Shown here piece by piece: positions 2,617 to 62,863 of a stretch of DNA of 64,000 nucleotides. Each line of letters begins with the position of its first letter. Position 1 is the first letter of the stretch. A model generated the notes under the pieces. That model had not been told where the DNA came from. It worked only from the letters and a program-made list of their open reading frames with translations, and did not search any database. Location of the stretch: contig NZ_MWQN01000001.1 in the NCBI RefSeq assembly GCF_002024165.1, positions 6,634,001 through 6,698,000 of the forward strand. Reading direction: 5' to 3'. The DNA comes from Embleya scabrispora. GTDB lineage: Bacteria > Actinomycetota > Actinomycetes > Streptomycetales > Streptomycetaceae. Both the position numbers and the translations under genes were made by a program.

Positions 2617-4598
<1,982 letters not shown>

Positions 4599-57695: not shown

Positions 57696-57897
57696 CCCCG
57701 GGAGGCGCCGGCGGGCGACGGGTCGGGCAGTTGCCGATCGCCGCGCGGGAGGCGGGCGAGCCGATCGATCGCGTTACACAAGAGAGATTTTCGTACCATG
57801 TGTGACCCCTTCGGACGGCGCTCGTTGGCCATCGTGCGCACGGCCCCGCACCCAGTCGCGGGTGCCGACCACGGCGCGGCGAGAGGGGACCCATCAC

Positions 57898-59931
57898 ATG
57901 CCAAGCGGCGGTCACGAGAGCGCGTCCGAACCGGCGGCCGAGCCCGTCCGGGACCTCGGGAGCGACCCGGGCATCGGGGGCCGGGCGCGACGAGCCCGAG
58001 CGGGCCTGGCCGACCTGTGTCGACGGCGGCTCGACGGGCGCGCGGTGCGCCGTACCGAGGCCTTGGTGGTCGGCCGATACCCCGAACTGGTACGGCTCGC
58101 CTACCTGATCCTGCCGCCCGGCCTGGAGCGGCATCGCCGGGTGCTCACGGCCCACGCCCTGGTCCAGGGCGCGTTGCCCGGTCGCCGGCGCGACCTGGGG
58201 CGTCGACCGGGCGCGGCGGGCATGGACGACGCGGAACTCGTCCGGCTGCGGATCGTGCGCGGCGCGCTGCTGCGATGTCGGTCCACCGGGCGGTGGGCGA
58301 CCCGACCGGCGGTGTTGCCGCAGGTCTGGGGGCTGCGCCTGTTCCCGCCGACCGGCGGCGTCGACGAGCCGGCGATCGAGCAGGCGCTGGGCCGACTGTC
58401 CGGGCCGGGGCGGGCCGCCTACGTGTTGCGAGTGCTCGAACGCCTCGATCCGGTCGGGGTGGCCGAACTGCTGCTGATCGCCGGCGTCGAGGACATCGCG
58501 AGCGCCGAGGCCGAGGCCGACGCGCTCGCGGCCGACCCGGTGGGGCTCGCCGACGGGCCCGGATCGGCGGCGGGCCGACTGCTGCACGCCGCCCACTTCG
58601 ACCCGTGCACGCTCCGGGCCACCCCGTCGGACCTGCTGCGCCGACGGCGCCGCAGGCGTACCGCGCTGGTGGCGGTCGCGGTCGCGGCGGTGCTGGCCGC
58701 CCTCGTCCCCTATGCCGGCGACGCGACCGAGTCCGGCGCCCCCGCCGCACCCGCCGCCCGGGCCGTGGTCGAGCCGCCCCGGGTGGTCCCGGCCGACGCC
58801 TGGACCACCACCACCCGGCTGGACTTCGACGTCTGGTCCACCCGGGGGGCGCGGGCCGGCGACCAGGCGCTGACCCGGCGCGCGGTCCGGGCCTGGGTCG
58901 AGCCCGAGCCCGGCACCACCGTCGCGCTCGGCCCGGGCGCCGCCGCCGGCCCACCGGTCGGCCTGCCGCGCCTGCTGTACGCGGGCGACGTCGCGGGGGC
59001 CGCGGTGGTCCTGCTCACCGACGGCACGCGCCTGGCCCGCTACACCGAGGAGCAGGGCGGCCGCCGTCTCGACGTGGCCGCGGCCGACGACTCGGACGCC
59101 CGCTCCGCCTCGGCCGTGGTGCTGCACCGGGGCGTGGCGGGTGTGCGGATGTTGCTCGCGCCGTGGGTGGACGAGGCGGCGACGCGGGATCTGCGCCGGC
59201 CCGACGACAAGAGCAGGCCGCTGCCGGTCACCGACGGAACGACCGCGCCGATGCCGGATCCGGGCACGGTGGCCAAGGGCTGCGCGACGGTACCGGTGCT
59301 CGAACTGGTGTCCAGGCGCGCCGCCGACGGTCACCCGTACCTGCTCGCGGACCTGGGCGAGGTGTCCGCGACCCACCTCACCTACATGCCGCCGCCGGAG
59401 TTCGCGCACACCGGCCGGCCGGCGGAGGCGGCCTCGACCGAGCGCGCGCTGACCGTCTGGTCGCGCACGGCCTGTGTGCTGGAGACGCTGCGCGGTCGGG
59501 GGCTGCGACTGGTGGACAACTGGGAGTTCGCGCACTTCGACCTGCCGGAGGCGGCCGGGGAGGGCATGTGGTCGTGCGTGCACGCGTTCGACCGCCGGGG
59601 TGGCGGTGACGTCGTGGTCCAGTTCCTGCCGCCCGGGGCCAACGCGACCGGGGCGCAGACCGTCGAGCGGCTGGCCGATTCGCCCGCGTGCAGCCGTTCG
59701 GCCAACGACATCGTCACCGCCACGTGGTGGCGCGCCCGATCCGGCGCCTGGTATCTGGTCGCGGCCGGTAGCCGGGACGTGGTCAGGCTGACCACCTCCG
59801 CCCCCGTGACCGGCTCGGCGGACGCCCGCCAACTGATCCTCAAGTCCCCCGGCACCACCCCGAACACCACGGCCCGCCCCCAGTTGGTGGCCACCCTCAA
59901 GTCCGGCAGCACCATCAAACCCCTCACCTGA
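57898..59931 (+). CDS. Large single-pass membrane protein with sigma-like N-terminal part
   Basis: A 677-residue protein of unknown function. Residues about 45-215 are helical and resemble degenerate ECF sigma regions (ALVVGRYPELVRLAYLILPP; RAAYVLRVLERLDPVGVAEL, then SAEAEADALAADPVG as a region-4-like HTH). A basic stretch (RRRRRRR) precedes a membrane helix (TALVAVAVAAVLAALVPYAG). The outer ~400 residues are beta-rich with four cysteines. GAGGGG lies before the ATG at 57898. I recall similar proteins in Streptomyces, without assigned function. It could link an envelope signal to transcription, but that is speculation. Confidence 0.75.
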   Translation: MPSGGHESASEPAAEPVRDLGSDPGIGGRARRARAGLADLCRRRLDGRAVRRTEALVVGRYPELVRLAYLILPPGLERHRRVLTAHALVQGALPGRRRDLGRRPGAAGMDDAELVRLRIVRGALLRCRSTGRWATRPAVLPQVWGLRLFPPTGGVDEPAIEQALGRLSGPGRAAYVLRVLERLDPVGVAELLLIAGVEDIASAEAEADALAADPVGLADGPGSAAGRLLHAAHFDPCTLRATPSDLLRRRRRRRTALVAVAVAAVLAALVPYAGDATESGAPAAPAARAVVEPPRVVPADAWTTTTRLDFDVWSTRGARAGDQALTRRAVRAWVEPEPGTTVALGPGAAAGPPVGLPRLLYAGDVAGAAVVLLTDGTRLARYTEEQGGRRLDVAAADDSDARSASAVVLHRGVAGVRMLLAPWVDEAATRDLRRPDDKSRPLPVTDGTTAPMPDPGTVAKGCATVPVLELVSRRAADGHPYLLADLGEVSATHLTYMPPPEFAHTGRPAEAASTERALTVWSRTACVLETLRGRGLRLVDNWEFAHFDLPEAAGEGMWSCVHAFDRRGGGDVVVQFLPPGANATGAQTVERLADSPACSRSANDIVTATWWRARSGAWYLVAAGSRDVVRLTTSAPVTGSADARQLILKSPGTTPNTTARPQLVATLKSGSTIKPLT

Positions 59932-60106
59932 CCGGAAGGCGGCACCCCCGACACCCAACCGCCGGTCGCTGCCGGGCCGCCGCGCACAAGGGCCGCGCGG
60001 CGGCGGCCGAGTGCCGAGCGGGCGCGGTGCGGTGTGGCCGTGGGCCGCCACCGAGGAGGACGCCACAGTCGCGCGCTCGGCCCAGGCCCTGTCCGGCGGA
60101 CCCTGG

Positions 60107-61228
60107 CGGCCTCGCGCCGCCCGGTTTCGCGCCGCGAGGTATGGCGCTGCCCGGTTTCGCGTCGCCCGGCGCGGTGCTGCCGGTTTCGCGCCGTGCGGCA
60201 CCGCGTTGCCCGGTATCGCGTCGCCCGGTTTTGCGCCGCGAGGTATGGCGCTGCCGGGTATCGCGTCGCCCGGCACTGTGTTGCCAGGTTTCGCGTCGTG
60301 CGGCATCGTGCCGCCCGGTTTCGCGTCGTCGGGTTTCGTGCCGCGAGGTGTTGCGCCGCCCGGTTTCGCGTCGTGCGGCGCCGTGCCGCCCGGTTTCGCG
60401 CCGCGCGGTGTCGCGTCGCCCGGTCTCGCGTCGCGAGGTGTTGCGTCGCCCGGTCTCGTGCCGCACGGTGTCGCCCTCGGGCATCGCGTCGTGCGGCACC
60501 GCGTTGCATCGCGTTGTCCGGTACGCGCCGCCCAGCACCGCGCCGCGACGTATGGCGCTGCCGGGTATCGCGTCGCCCGGCACCGTGCTGCCAGGTTTCG
60601 CGTCGTGCGGCGCCGTGCCGCCCGGTATCGCGTCGTGCGGCGCCGTGCCGCCCGGTATCGCGTCGCCGGTGTTGCGTCGCCTGGTCTCGTGCCGCGCGGT
60701 GTTGCGTCGCCTGGTCTCGTGCCGCGCGGTGTTGCGTCGCCTGGTCTCGTGCCGCGCGGTGTTGCGTCGCCTGGTCTCGTGCCGCGCGGTGTTGCGTCGC
60801 CTGGTCTCGTGCCGCGCGGTGTCGCGCCGCGCGGTGTTGCGTCGTCCGGTCTCGTGCCGCGCGGTGTTGCGCCGCGCGGTCTCGTGCCGCGCGGTGTCGT
60901 GCCGCGCGGTCTCGTGCCGCGCGGTGTTGCGTCGCGCGGTGTCGCGCTCTCGGGCATCGCGTCGTGCGGCACCGCGTTGCATCGCGTTGTCCGGTACGCG
61001 CCGCCCGGTTTCGCGCCGCGAGGTATGGCGCTGCCCGGTATCGCGTCGTGCGGCACCGTGCTGCCAGGTTTCGCGTCGTGCGGCGCCGCGTTGCCCGGTA
61101 TTGCGCCGTTCGGTTTCGCGCCGCGAGGTATCGCGTTGCGCGGAGCCGCGTTGCCCGGAATCGCATCGCGTTGTGCGGCACCGCGTTGCCCGGTATCGCG
61201 CCGCCCGGCAGCGCGTCGTGCGGTACCG
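60107..61228. repeat. 1.1-kb array of degenerate 15-bp tandem repeats
   Basis: The basic unit is about SGGTNTYGYGYCGYS on the + strand, near 70 copies with a few phase breaks. A 30-bp dimer (GTTGCGTCGCCTGGTCTCGT plus GCCGCGCGGT) is repeated perfectly four times at 60691-60810, with a 23-base partial copy before it. The stretch 60658-60955 has no A on the + strand. With no A on one strand, no stop codon can occur in any frame, so the long ORFs here are not evidence for genes. In one + frame it reads as 5-residue x-G-hydrophobic-A/V-S/P repeats. A coding role is not supported; it lies between two + genes. Confidence 0.85.
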
Positions 61229-61517
61229 GAGAAGCGGCCGGAGGGGACCCCTTTGCGGTTGTTTTTCCGGTGCGCCGCGGCACGGCACTGGACGGCGCGG
61301 CCCGATCCACCGGGGGCCGCCGGACGGGGTCTGGGTCGCAGTCGACCCCCGGGCCACGCTCCCGTCTTCCGCGTGTCCGGCCCGTTCAGGGGGATGCCCG
61401 CCGGCGGCGGGGGCCCGCCGACCGGGGGGCGGCTCGCGGGTGTGGCTCCGGGGGTGTTCGCGCGTGCGTGTCGTCCGTCGGTGTTCTCGGCCGGGTCGGG
61501 CGTTTGGGGGTTGCGGA

Positions 61518-61533
61518 AAAGTGATATCACTTT
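61518..61533. promoter_or_regulatory. Perfect 16-bp palindrome at the SPFH promoter
   Basis: AAAGTGAT and ATCACTTT form an uninterrupted palindrome, 44 bases upstream of the SPFH GTG. TTGCGG (61511-61516) and TATGGT (61536-61541) flank it as possible -35 and -10 boxes, so a bound regulator would block the promoter. The small RHH protein of the same operon is one candidate. Confidence 0.65.
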
Positions 61534-61576
61534 GCTATGGTGTTGATGCCAGGTTGGTCGAGTGAGGAGTGGCGTT

Positions 61577-62500
61577 GTGAGTGATTTCGGGTCCGCGGCC
61601 GTTGTGGAGATGCCGGCGCCGCAGGTGCGGGAGCGAGTGGTGACGGGGGCGGCCGGGCTGCCTGCGTTGGTCGTGGGGGTGGCTTTGGTTGCCGGGGGAA
61701 TCGTGTTGACCGTGGTCGGCTCGCTCCTGGACGACGGGCAGAAGGTGGCCGCCATCGCGAGTGGGATCGTGATCATCGTCCTGGCGCTGTTCGGGCTGTG
61801 CGGGCTGACCACCGTCGCGCCCGGCGAGGCGCGGGTGCTCCAGCTGTTCGGGCACTACAAGGGCACGTTGCGCAAGGACGGGCTGCGGTGGGTGAACCCG
61901 TTCACCGACCGCACCAAGGTCTCCACCCGGATCCGCAACCACGAGACGCAGACCGCCAAGGTCAACGACAACGACGGCAATCCGATCGAGATCGCCGCGG
62001 TCGTGGTCTGGCAGGTCGAGGACACCGCGCAGGCCAAGTTCGAGGTGGACGACTTCGAGGAGTTCGTCGCCATCCAGACCGAGACCGCCGTGCGGCACAT
62101 CGCCAACAGCTACCCGTACGACGACCACGGCCAGGGCGGCATGTCCCTGCGCGACAACGCCGACGAGATCACCGGCAAGTTGTCCGCCGAGATCGGTGCC
62201 CGGGTCGCCTCGGCCGGGGTCAGCGTGGTCGAATCGCGGATCACCCGGCTCGCCTATGCGCCGGAGATCGCCCAGGCGATGTTGCGTCGCCAGCAGGCGG
62301 GTGCGGTGGTCGCGGCCCGGCAGCGGATCGTCGAGGGCGCGGTGGGCATGGTCGAACTGGCGCTGAACCGGCTGGAGGAAGGCGACCTGGTGGAACTCGA
62401 CGACGACCGCCGGGCGGCCATGGTGAGCAACCTGCTCGTCGTCCTGTGCAGCGAACAGGCCACGCAGCCCGTGGTCAACACGGGCTCCCTCTACGCATAG
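61577..62500 (+). CDS. SPFH/Band 7 (stomatin-like) membrane protein
   Basis: A 307-residue scaffold protein. Two N-terminal helices ([38 protein letters not shown]) are followed by the SPFH domain ([20 protein letters not shown] through [20 protein letters not shown]) and a C-terminal helical region ([20 protein letters not shown] onward). GAGGAG lies 7 bases before the GTG. SPFH proteins organise membrane microdomains. It starts a likely three-gene unit. Confidence 0.92.
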
Positions 62501-62509
62501 TCGGTCCCC

Positions 62510-62863
62510 GTGACCGAACGGAAGAAGATCCTGCTCCGACTGGATCCGGCCGTGCACGACGCGATCGCCAAGTGGGCGGCCGACGAACTGCGCAGCACCA
62601 ACGCCCAGATCGAGTTCCTGCTGCGCCGTGCGCTCGGCGACGCCGGTCGGATGCCGGGCAATGCCGGGCGACCGGCCCGACGGGGCCGACCGCCCAAGCC
62701 GACTCCGACGGCGGGCCCGGCTCTCGATCCCGACAACGGCCCCGAGACCGATTCCGATGCCGAGCCCGGGGGAGGCGCCGGTGGCGATCGAGGCGACCCT
62801 GGCGGTTCTGGTCGGCGTCGTCGCGACCGTGGCGACGGTGGCGACCTCGAGGCCGCGCCGTGA
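62510..62863 (+). CDS. Arc/ribbon-helix-helix protein with AT-hook-like tail
   Basis: A 117-residue protein. Residues 1-45 form an RHH motif (RKKILLRLDPAVHDAIAKWA, then STNAQIEFLLRRAL). The tail is Pro/Gly/Arg/Asp-rich and contains ARRGRPPKP, similar to an AT-hook core. Its GTG lies 9 bases after the SPFH stop. Such small RHH genes follow SPFH genes in several Streptomyces, from memory. It may regulate the operon through the upstream palindrome. Confidence 0.82.
   Translation: MTERKKILLRLDPAVHDAIAKWAADELRSTNAQIEFLLRRALGDAGRMPGNAGRPARRGRPPKPTPTAGPALDPDNGPETDSDAEPGGGAGGDRGDPGGSGRRRRDRGDGGDLEAAP

Follow-up and report, generated by a model that had tools for sequence, protein, structure and literature searches.

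A 15-bp minisatellite that probably arose inside a MITE-like foldback element of Embleya scabrispora

Introduction

Bacterial MITEs such as ERIC, the Coxiella QMITEs and Chunjie are elements of about 150-240 bp that fold back, carry terminal inverted repeats and insertion-sequence-like ends, and are dispersed and mostly intergenic, as portrayed in a review whose main text never uses the words Streptomyces or Actino... (PMC10969869). The element described below is like them in each of these respects and differs in that one copy contains a 1.1-kb internal tandem expansion. Prokaryotic satellites and minisatellites form a second relevant class, with 10-200-bp tandem units that are partly intergenic, and the published satellite list includes S. 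coelicolor and other actinobacteria (PMC6749651). The array studied here resembles these as well, the difference being that its birthplace (the arm of an element) and its strand-biased decay can still be read.

A third line of work concerns strand-biased replication errors. In the counts reported for S. ambofaciens delta-nucS, the leading strand of the right replichore has more C>T than G>A (715 versus 274) and more A>G than T>C (1150 versus 412), while nucS loss has little effect on indels and the bias is invisible in the wild type, in which mutations are too few (PMC11109965). The array shows the same preference for C>T over G>A and A>G over T>C, which is about 2.6-2.8 fold in these mutants; the published figures, however, are a mutator-line measurement, whereas here a similar bias is found in a genome with a nucS gene. 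In M. smegmatis, NucS was reported to suppress recombination between non-identical, but not identical, sequences (PMC5290159). Each of the three ingredients (foldback MITE-like elements, minisatellites, strand-biased errors) has been described before; their combination, with the parent element and the seed still readable, did not come up in searches of open-licence papers.

Here we analyse a tandem array of E. scabrispora that is probably a non-coding, functionless minisatellite within one MITE-like foldback element, a seed in that element having been copied to about 70 units that have since decayed with a replication bias. The evidence for the strand mechanism is weaker than that for the origin of the array in the element.

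The locus and the array

The window, i.e. the whole stretch of DNA that was analysed, spans 64,000 bp (C1:6634001-6698000). Two + strand genes frame the array: upstream, a gene encoding 709 aa (57802..59931), which is 89% identical in Embleya hyalina NBRC 13850, the nearest named relative, and downstream a gene for an SPFH/Band 7 protein (61562..62500), which is 98% identical in that species. A previous sequence-only reading of the window had labelled the upstream gene 'sigma-like', which was not confirmed, Pfam giving no family match. The gap between the two genes is 1630 bp here versus about 173 bp in E. hyalina, where the array is absent. In G002, the 709-aa gene is just a fragment beside the SPFH gene. 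Upstream of the SPFH gene, a perfect palindrome (AAAGTGATATCACTTT, 61518-61533) lies next to a TATGGT-like -10 and is kept in E. hyalina and G002, while a short protein (62510-62863) is ribbon-helix-helix-like from its sequence, although it has no Pfam match; this putative regulator may bind the palindrome.

The minisatellite itself (60107-61226, + strand) consists of ~70 degenerate 15-bp units with the consensus CGYGYYGYSCGGYNY, and its extent was set by segmentation, TRF and the seed overlap of blast halves described below. Segmentation with a cyclic profile yielded 68 full 15-bp units plus partial units in 60107-61228, and TRF scored 375 at period 15 and 457 at period 60, which bears out the ordered array that the sequence-only reading had proposed. 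At lags 15 and 30 the autocorrelation is 0.61 and 0.68, respectively, with a mean of 0.32 over lags 1-69. An exact 30-bp dimer is present in five copies at 60669-60818 (+ strand), as established by exact pattern search, and has no further match in the 10.96-Mb genome; such dimers had been noticed before, although their number and extent (four, at 60691-60810) had to be corrected. This is the most homogeneous part of the array, identity to the copy at +30 being 0.81-0.89 in windows covering 60647-60827, versus 0.59-0.72 in the outermost two windows on either side; at inner breaks it drops twice, to 0.37 near 60467 and to 0.42 near 60917.

The base composition is equally distinctive. A is absent from the + (leading) strand across 60658-60955, a run of 298 bases by base count that agrees to the nucleotide with the earlier description, as does the extreme T-over-A skew, and the next longest such run in the window is 95 bases. 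On the + strand, G fills 372 of the 374 cells of five array columns, whereas T replaces C in 18-49% of units in five C columns; over the whole array T/(C+T) is 0.37, A/(A+G) 0.10 and GC 0.748. One-base deletions are found in two units, at 60510 and 60983.

With 15-bp units the array falls within the ~10-100-bp tandem units of minisatellites. It is the longest among 51 non-coding arrays (TRF score >=100) in the 2.06 Mb of its own genome that were sampled; beyond that sample lies a 1159-bp tandem array, L014 (C1:3.626 Mb), taken irrespective of coding status. In 41 genomes the array finds only short matches elsewhere (best E 3.4e-12 for L014 in its own genome and 7.9e-11 in G003), for which reason a mobile array copied to other places was rejected, and a search of plasmids returned a single matching record, over the right part alone. 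A variable-number repeat, one of several options initially offered, is the right kind of object, the array being absent from the E. hyalina site in this between-species comparison with one genome per species. The view that it corresponds to no known feature type was half right: the array is a minisatellite, but one that apparently lies within a MITE-like foldback element. Since the host element has its two ends beyond those of the array, the feature is larger than the array and spans about 60082-61334.

The host element and the origin of the array

A DNA search showed that relatives of the right flank are dispersed in three of four genomes. The six relatives that were read are copies of a ~172-bp element, the best-kept ones with terminal inverted repeats (GGCCCTGTCCGGCGGATC) and the others decayed. 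A 172-bp consensus was built from eight copies of this foldback (palindromic) element, which is dispersed and mostly intergenic and has IS5-type ends (CTAGGCCCTGTCCGGCGGATC) at both termini. In the window, blastn to an E. hyalina copy delimits the left end (60082..60126, + strand), made of the terminal inverted repeat CCAGGCCCTGTCCGGCGGA and the start of the left arm, and the right part (61196..61334, + strand), made of the last two units, the hairpin, the right arm and a terminal inverted repeat at ~61313-61334. The left terminal repeat was also located by pattern search, at C1:6694087 with one mismatch.

The alignment to the E. hyalina copy is the key to the origin of the array. That copy matches a left piece (60080-60124) with 84% identity over 45 bp (E 8e-7) and a right piece (61196-61335) with 79% identity over 140 bp (E 1.5e-28), and within the copy the two pieces overlap at a 15-bp seed. 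This seed consists of two imperfect 15-bp repeats in the left arm of other copies, which read CGCGCCGCCCGGCAC/CGCACCTCGGCGCGC in the letters of the E. hyalina copy. Because the pieces flank the array and overlap at the seed, the array appears to be the left arm of the element, amplified. The halves of the element are 1103 bp apart in the window copy versus 8-33 bp in six others with abutting halves in the blast table, and a gap of ~1.1 kb is found in the window copy alone among 13 distinct copies, these being the ones with both halves visible in one strand-specific search (L280/L275 counted once). None of the other 12 has a tandem array with a TRF score >=80 inside the element. Below that score (at 64), the left arm of the own-genome copy L274 (L274:1409-1454, C1:1.524 Mb) contains 2.3 copies of a 20-bp repeat, perhaps an incipient array and the first step of the same kind.

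At E<=0.001 the family is found in 28 of 61 genomes and 16 of 30 genera, with many weak matches, and is strongest in Embleya. There are 17 matches in the own genome (G000), 16 in G001, 23 in G002 and none in G003, numbers that may double-count since a palindromic copy can match on both strands. Eleven plasmid records, all from Streptomycetaceae, match the element, and a single NBC_00888 replicon has 24 element places. The copies that were read sit between called genes, which they overlap by a few bases at most, while some weaker plasmid matches overlap annotated genes. Self-complementarity extends over nearly the whole length, at 73-86%, in nine full-length copies drawn from eight genomes.

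The element is short, has no transposase gene and occurs as dispersed copies with terminal inverted repeats, as MITEs do, and ends in common with a putative autonomous transposon are provided by Streptomyces sp. NBC_01218, in which an annotated IS5-family transposase, split over two ORFs matching DUF4096 'IS4/5 family' and DDE_Tnp_1, is bracketed by the element-like ends GGCACTGTCCTGCGGATC and GATCCGCCGGACAGCGCC. There, an 18-base left end (two substitutions) lies at L301:3102 and a right end (one substitution) at 4035, with a second possible left end at 2506. Compared with Streptomyces IS5-family elements of this DUF4096 + DDE_Tnp_1 type, the ends are similar and the transposase is missing. 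A search with the end sequence matched 19 plasmid records, and a transposase is annotated within 2.5 kb at just one of six loci inspected, which include the NBC_00888 stretch without annotated genes. The 16-base end (<=1 mismatch) occurs 12 times in the own genome, never with a second one facing it within 2 kb, and a full-length partner was thus not seen there. From its sequence features, the element is therefore described here as MITE-like with IS5-type ends. The terminal repeat strings have no match in the text of the open-licence papers searched.

The element is also absent at the E. hyalina site, together with about 275 bp around it (~115 bp on the left and ~160 bp on the right that do not align), and the site is for this reason not a clean insertion. 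No target duplication was identified at the ends of the element, where CTAG is suggestive only.

Strand bias at the array and across the genome

A 7.1-Mb linear chromosome, as given for one Embleya species in PMC13152386, fits C1 (7.005 Mb). The positions of dnaA (C1:3332795) and of six parS sites (3.278-3.349 Mb) place oriC at 3.28-3.35 Mb, left of the window, which makes the + strand the leading strand. A consensus was made from eight element copies in four further genomes of the genus, and the parts beside the array depart from it by 18 transitions of leading type (C>T or A>G) and 1 opposite. In the right part, which includes the last two units, the changes are 10 C>T and 6 A>G, with neither G>A nor T>C; in the left part they are 2 C>T and 1 T>C. 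Against a six-copy reference that includes L274 from the own genome, the right part has C>T 6, A>G 4 and G>A 1. Within the array, a minimum spanning tree of the distinct units gives CT 31 and AG 6 (one-sided p 5.7e-4 after base-content correction). The eight other copies of the own genome together show 46 leading-type versus 34 opposite changes, which is not significant, and the L014 array has CT 6 and AG 8, from 8 full units.

A similar asymmetry was seen in non-coding arrays sampled across the genome (TRF >=100). T exceeds A on the leading strand in 21 of 26 arrays of a first sample (864 kb in 41 stretches, including the window) and in 18 of 25 of a second (p 0.043), which comprised 60 further stretches fetched once the hypothesis had been noted, in two steps, the first 20 stretches giving 5/7. 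For both samples the figure is 39 of 51 (p 2e-4), rising to 25 of 28 for arrays >=200 bp (p 2.7e-5). The skew grows with array length (rho 0.40, p 0.004) but not significantly towards loci farther from the origin (rho 0.23, p 0.23), and in 19 of 28 arrays the internal transitions lean towards CT on the leading strand (p 0.087). One repeat family accounts for part of the 25 of 28. All 12 arrays of >=200 bp that hold a CTCAARC-type motif are T-rich on the leading strand, as are 13 of the remaining 16; without arrays of this type the count is 25 of 36 (p 0.029). The strand rule is not universal. At TRF >=60, leading-strand T-richness was found in 44 of 61 arrays in the first sample and 35 of 64 in the second, so that the rule is missing in shorter second-sample arrays, as it is in the other copies of the element, and it was not shown in comparison genomes of two other genera (G020, 4/6; G011, 4/9). 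Array density in these is 30 and 45 per Mb, versus 30 per Mb in the own genome, in which arrays are longer. Other non-coding DNA has a T-A skew of just 0.01-0.04, and strand bias alone consequently leaves the difference of the arrays unexplained.

An expectation for DNA without repair can be derived from the counts of both replichores in PMC11109965, with GC assumed to be 72%: the predicted leading-strand equilibrium is T/(C+T) 0.41, A/(A+G) 0.08 and GC 0.756. The two ratios, given above for the array, are 0.33 and 0.16 in pooled arrays >=200 bp and 0.31 and 0.29 in other non-coding DNA. The own genome has NucS, and MutS_V found no match in it (control positive in 11 of 14). On this calculation, the missing A and the strand bias of the array would fit the published bias of Streptomyces without NucS repair. 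The reported action of NucS on non-identical sequences (PMC5290159) would in addition favour turnover of the homogeneous centre of the array.

Replication is not the only process that could leave such a trace. Both flanking genes lie on the + strand, so that transcription and replication are indistinguishable at this locus, and read-through could expose a single-stranded + strand (R-loop or non-template) to deamination of C and A, a process that also yields C>T with A>G on one strand. That 18 of 19 transitions beside the array are leading-type, which exceeds the 2.6-2.8 fold replication bias of PMC11109965, speaks for this possibility. Among arrays between co-directional genes, however, the coding strand is T-rich in 13 of 31, which shows no link to gene direction, versus the leading strand in 39 of 51. 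Skew set by the direction of transcription was on this count rejected as a general rule, and transcription seems an unlikely cause of the decay.

Hairpins and RNA structure

The parent element is a 64-pair hairpin in which 90.9% of cells are paired in an alignment of nine copies. Two-sided changes were counted in 37 of 64 pairs, whereas column shuffles give 16.3 and slid controls 6-15; the structure had been derived from the very alignment used for this count. These changes could come either from selection on the hairpin or from template-switch correction between the arms, the latter needing no function, and the hairpin itself may act as a structured RNA or a bidirectional terminator, or have been produced by arm-to-arm correction. 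In the window, the central hairpin (CCGGAGAAGCGGCCG...CGGTTGTTTTTCCGG; 61223..61273, + strand), defined by fold and alignment, is still foldable, its right arm bearing several C>T changes (G-T wobble).

It might accordingly be asked if the array is a functional structured RNA or an array of single-strand hairpins, with tolerance of G-U pairs accounting for C->T variation while G stays fixed. The hairpin nature of the parent element and its two-sided changes are in keeping with this, and a 291-base part of the array has a good fold as + RNA (z -5.7) and a poorer one as - RNA (z -2.2), with z -5.4 (+) and -2.7 (-) for the same part as DNA. Over the whole array, however, the + RNA reaches -673.5 versus -666.5 +/- 8.6 kcal/mol in 30 column-shuffled arrays, i.e. 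it folds no better than they do, with z of about -0.8 for the + and about -3.0 for the - strand, opposite to the prediction. Selection on RNA structure in the array thus finds no support in column shuffles. Neither array nor element matches Rfam at gathering score, the only hits being chance-level miRNA matches far below it, and the array is absent from the sister species. The structural RNA that the sequence-only reading had listed among its options is for these reasons very improbable. Orientation-dependent hairpin stability as a driver likewise finds no support: with every array cut to 400 bases, the more stable fold is on the leading strand in 32 of 51 (p 0.10). As DNA, the + strand of the whole array has a slightly weaker fold than the - strand (-354.7 versus -365.9).

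Independent origin and coding potential

That the array arose independently of an element that merely flanks it is a reading in whose favour one may cite that non-coding arrays are common in the own genome (about 20-30 per Mb) and that the element was checked for at only a handful of loci. Against it, the units match the element's own left arm and the blast halves overlap at the seed. T-richness might alternatively be a founder property of the first unit, and a T-rich founder would indeed be copied unchanged; the differences among distinct units are nevertheless mostly C/T, and the parts beside the array are equally biased. We give either version of this explanation very little credence.

All six frames of 60107-61228 are stop-free, and ORFs of up to 1405 aa run over the region, as had been foreseen together with the spurious long genes that would result. 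These very long ORFs exist because A is missing. A practical warning is in order that they are false. On a codon model trained on long ORFs of the own genome, the six array frames score between -0.12 and -0.64 bits/codon, while the minimum of the called genes of the window is +0.26. Third-position GC is 0.72-0.80 in the array frames, 0.88 in the lowest-scoring window gene and 0.94 for the window-gene median. Coding was rejected in every frame, all being negative on the codon model, and the array has neither the codon usage nor the fixed frame of a protein-coding repeat gene. Mycobacterial MPTR repeats, which lie in PPE genes, have a 15-bp periodicity and a similar CGGTGTTG core; they are coding, in contrast to the array. 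A repetitive protein of pentapeptide units akin to these, which had been one of the initial suggestions, is barely conceivable, for although 15 bp makes five codons and all six frames are open, the frame scores are negative, third-position GC is below that of window genes and the units at 60510 and 60983 are each short of one base.

Proposed history and significance

A minisatellite grown from the arm of a foldback element would be accounted for by the following scenario. A MITE-like element with IS5-type ends sits between the 709-aa gene and the SPFH gene, and its seed would have been amplified to ~70 copies by replication slippage or template switching at the hairpin, followed by unequal exchange between units. 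This mode of amplification is suggested by the dimeric organization, by a centre more homogeneous than the ends and by the lack of an array at the sister site. As the array codes for nothing, base changes would be retained, and leading-strand replication errors favouring C>T and A>G would have let C decay to T and removed A, a proposal prompted by the match with the published S. ambofaciens spectrum. The array itself is most likely functionless and would at most be a spacer between the upstream gene and the SPFH promoter.

If so, the case would show the birth of a bacterial minisatellite, with parent element, two-unit seed and array-free sister site all visible. Should the strand rule hold, long non-coding arrays in high-GC actinomycetes would report the direction of replication and uncorrected errors without mutation-accumulation lines. 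A bolder and rather doubtful idea is that foldback elements are minisatellite nurseries in Streptomycetaceae, whose arrays escape NucS and settle at the raw strand-specific error equilibrium of the fork, in which case each array would record the uncorrected error spectrum of the polymerase and the replication direction of its locus.

Other repeats

A second case of the same type is a separate 15-bp array in E. hyalina (TCGCGTCCCCGGGCT, L017:6527-6748), which has 4 A and 49 T on one strand and varies mainly between C and T (CT 11, AG 1). Non-coding tandem arrays (TRF >=100; density as above) make up ~5% of the non-coding DNA in the first sample of the own genome, and 2-3% in small samples of G020 and G011.

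For a GC-rich 12-mer, CTCAARCGCCGG, no relevant literature on such a polar repeat was found among open-licence papers. It has 8 copies without clear polarity in G011 and none in G020. The CTCAARCGCCGGMCGGGCTG left-arm loci, counted by eye among the matches listed, which reach to 3.62 Mb, are 20 reverse, 3 forward and 3 mixed. In 2.06 Mb of the own genome, CTCAARCGCCGG was counted 4 times forward and 32 times reverse left of oriC, and 47 times forward and once reverse to the right of it, with examples on C1 at L072:15702-16407, L247, L252 and L254. Collapsed to loci, 14 of 16 are in leading orientation, the repeat being strongly polar with respect to replication.
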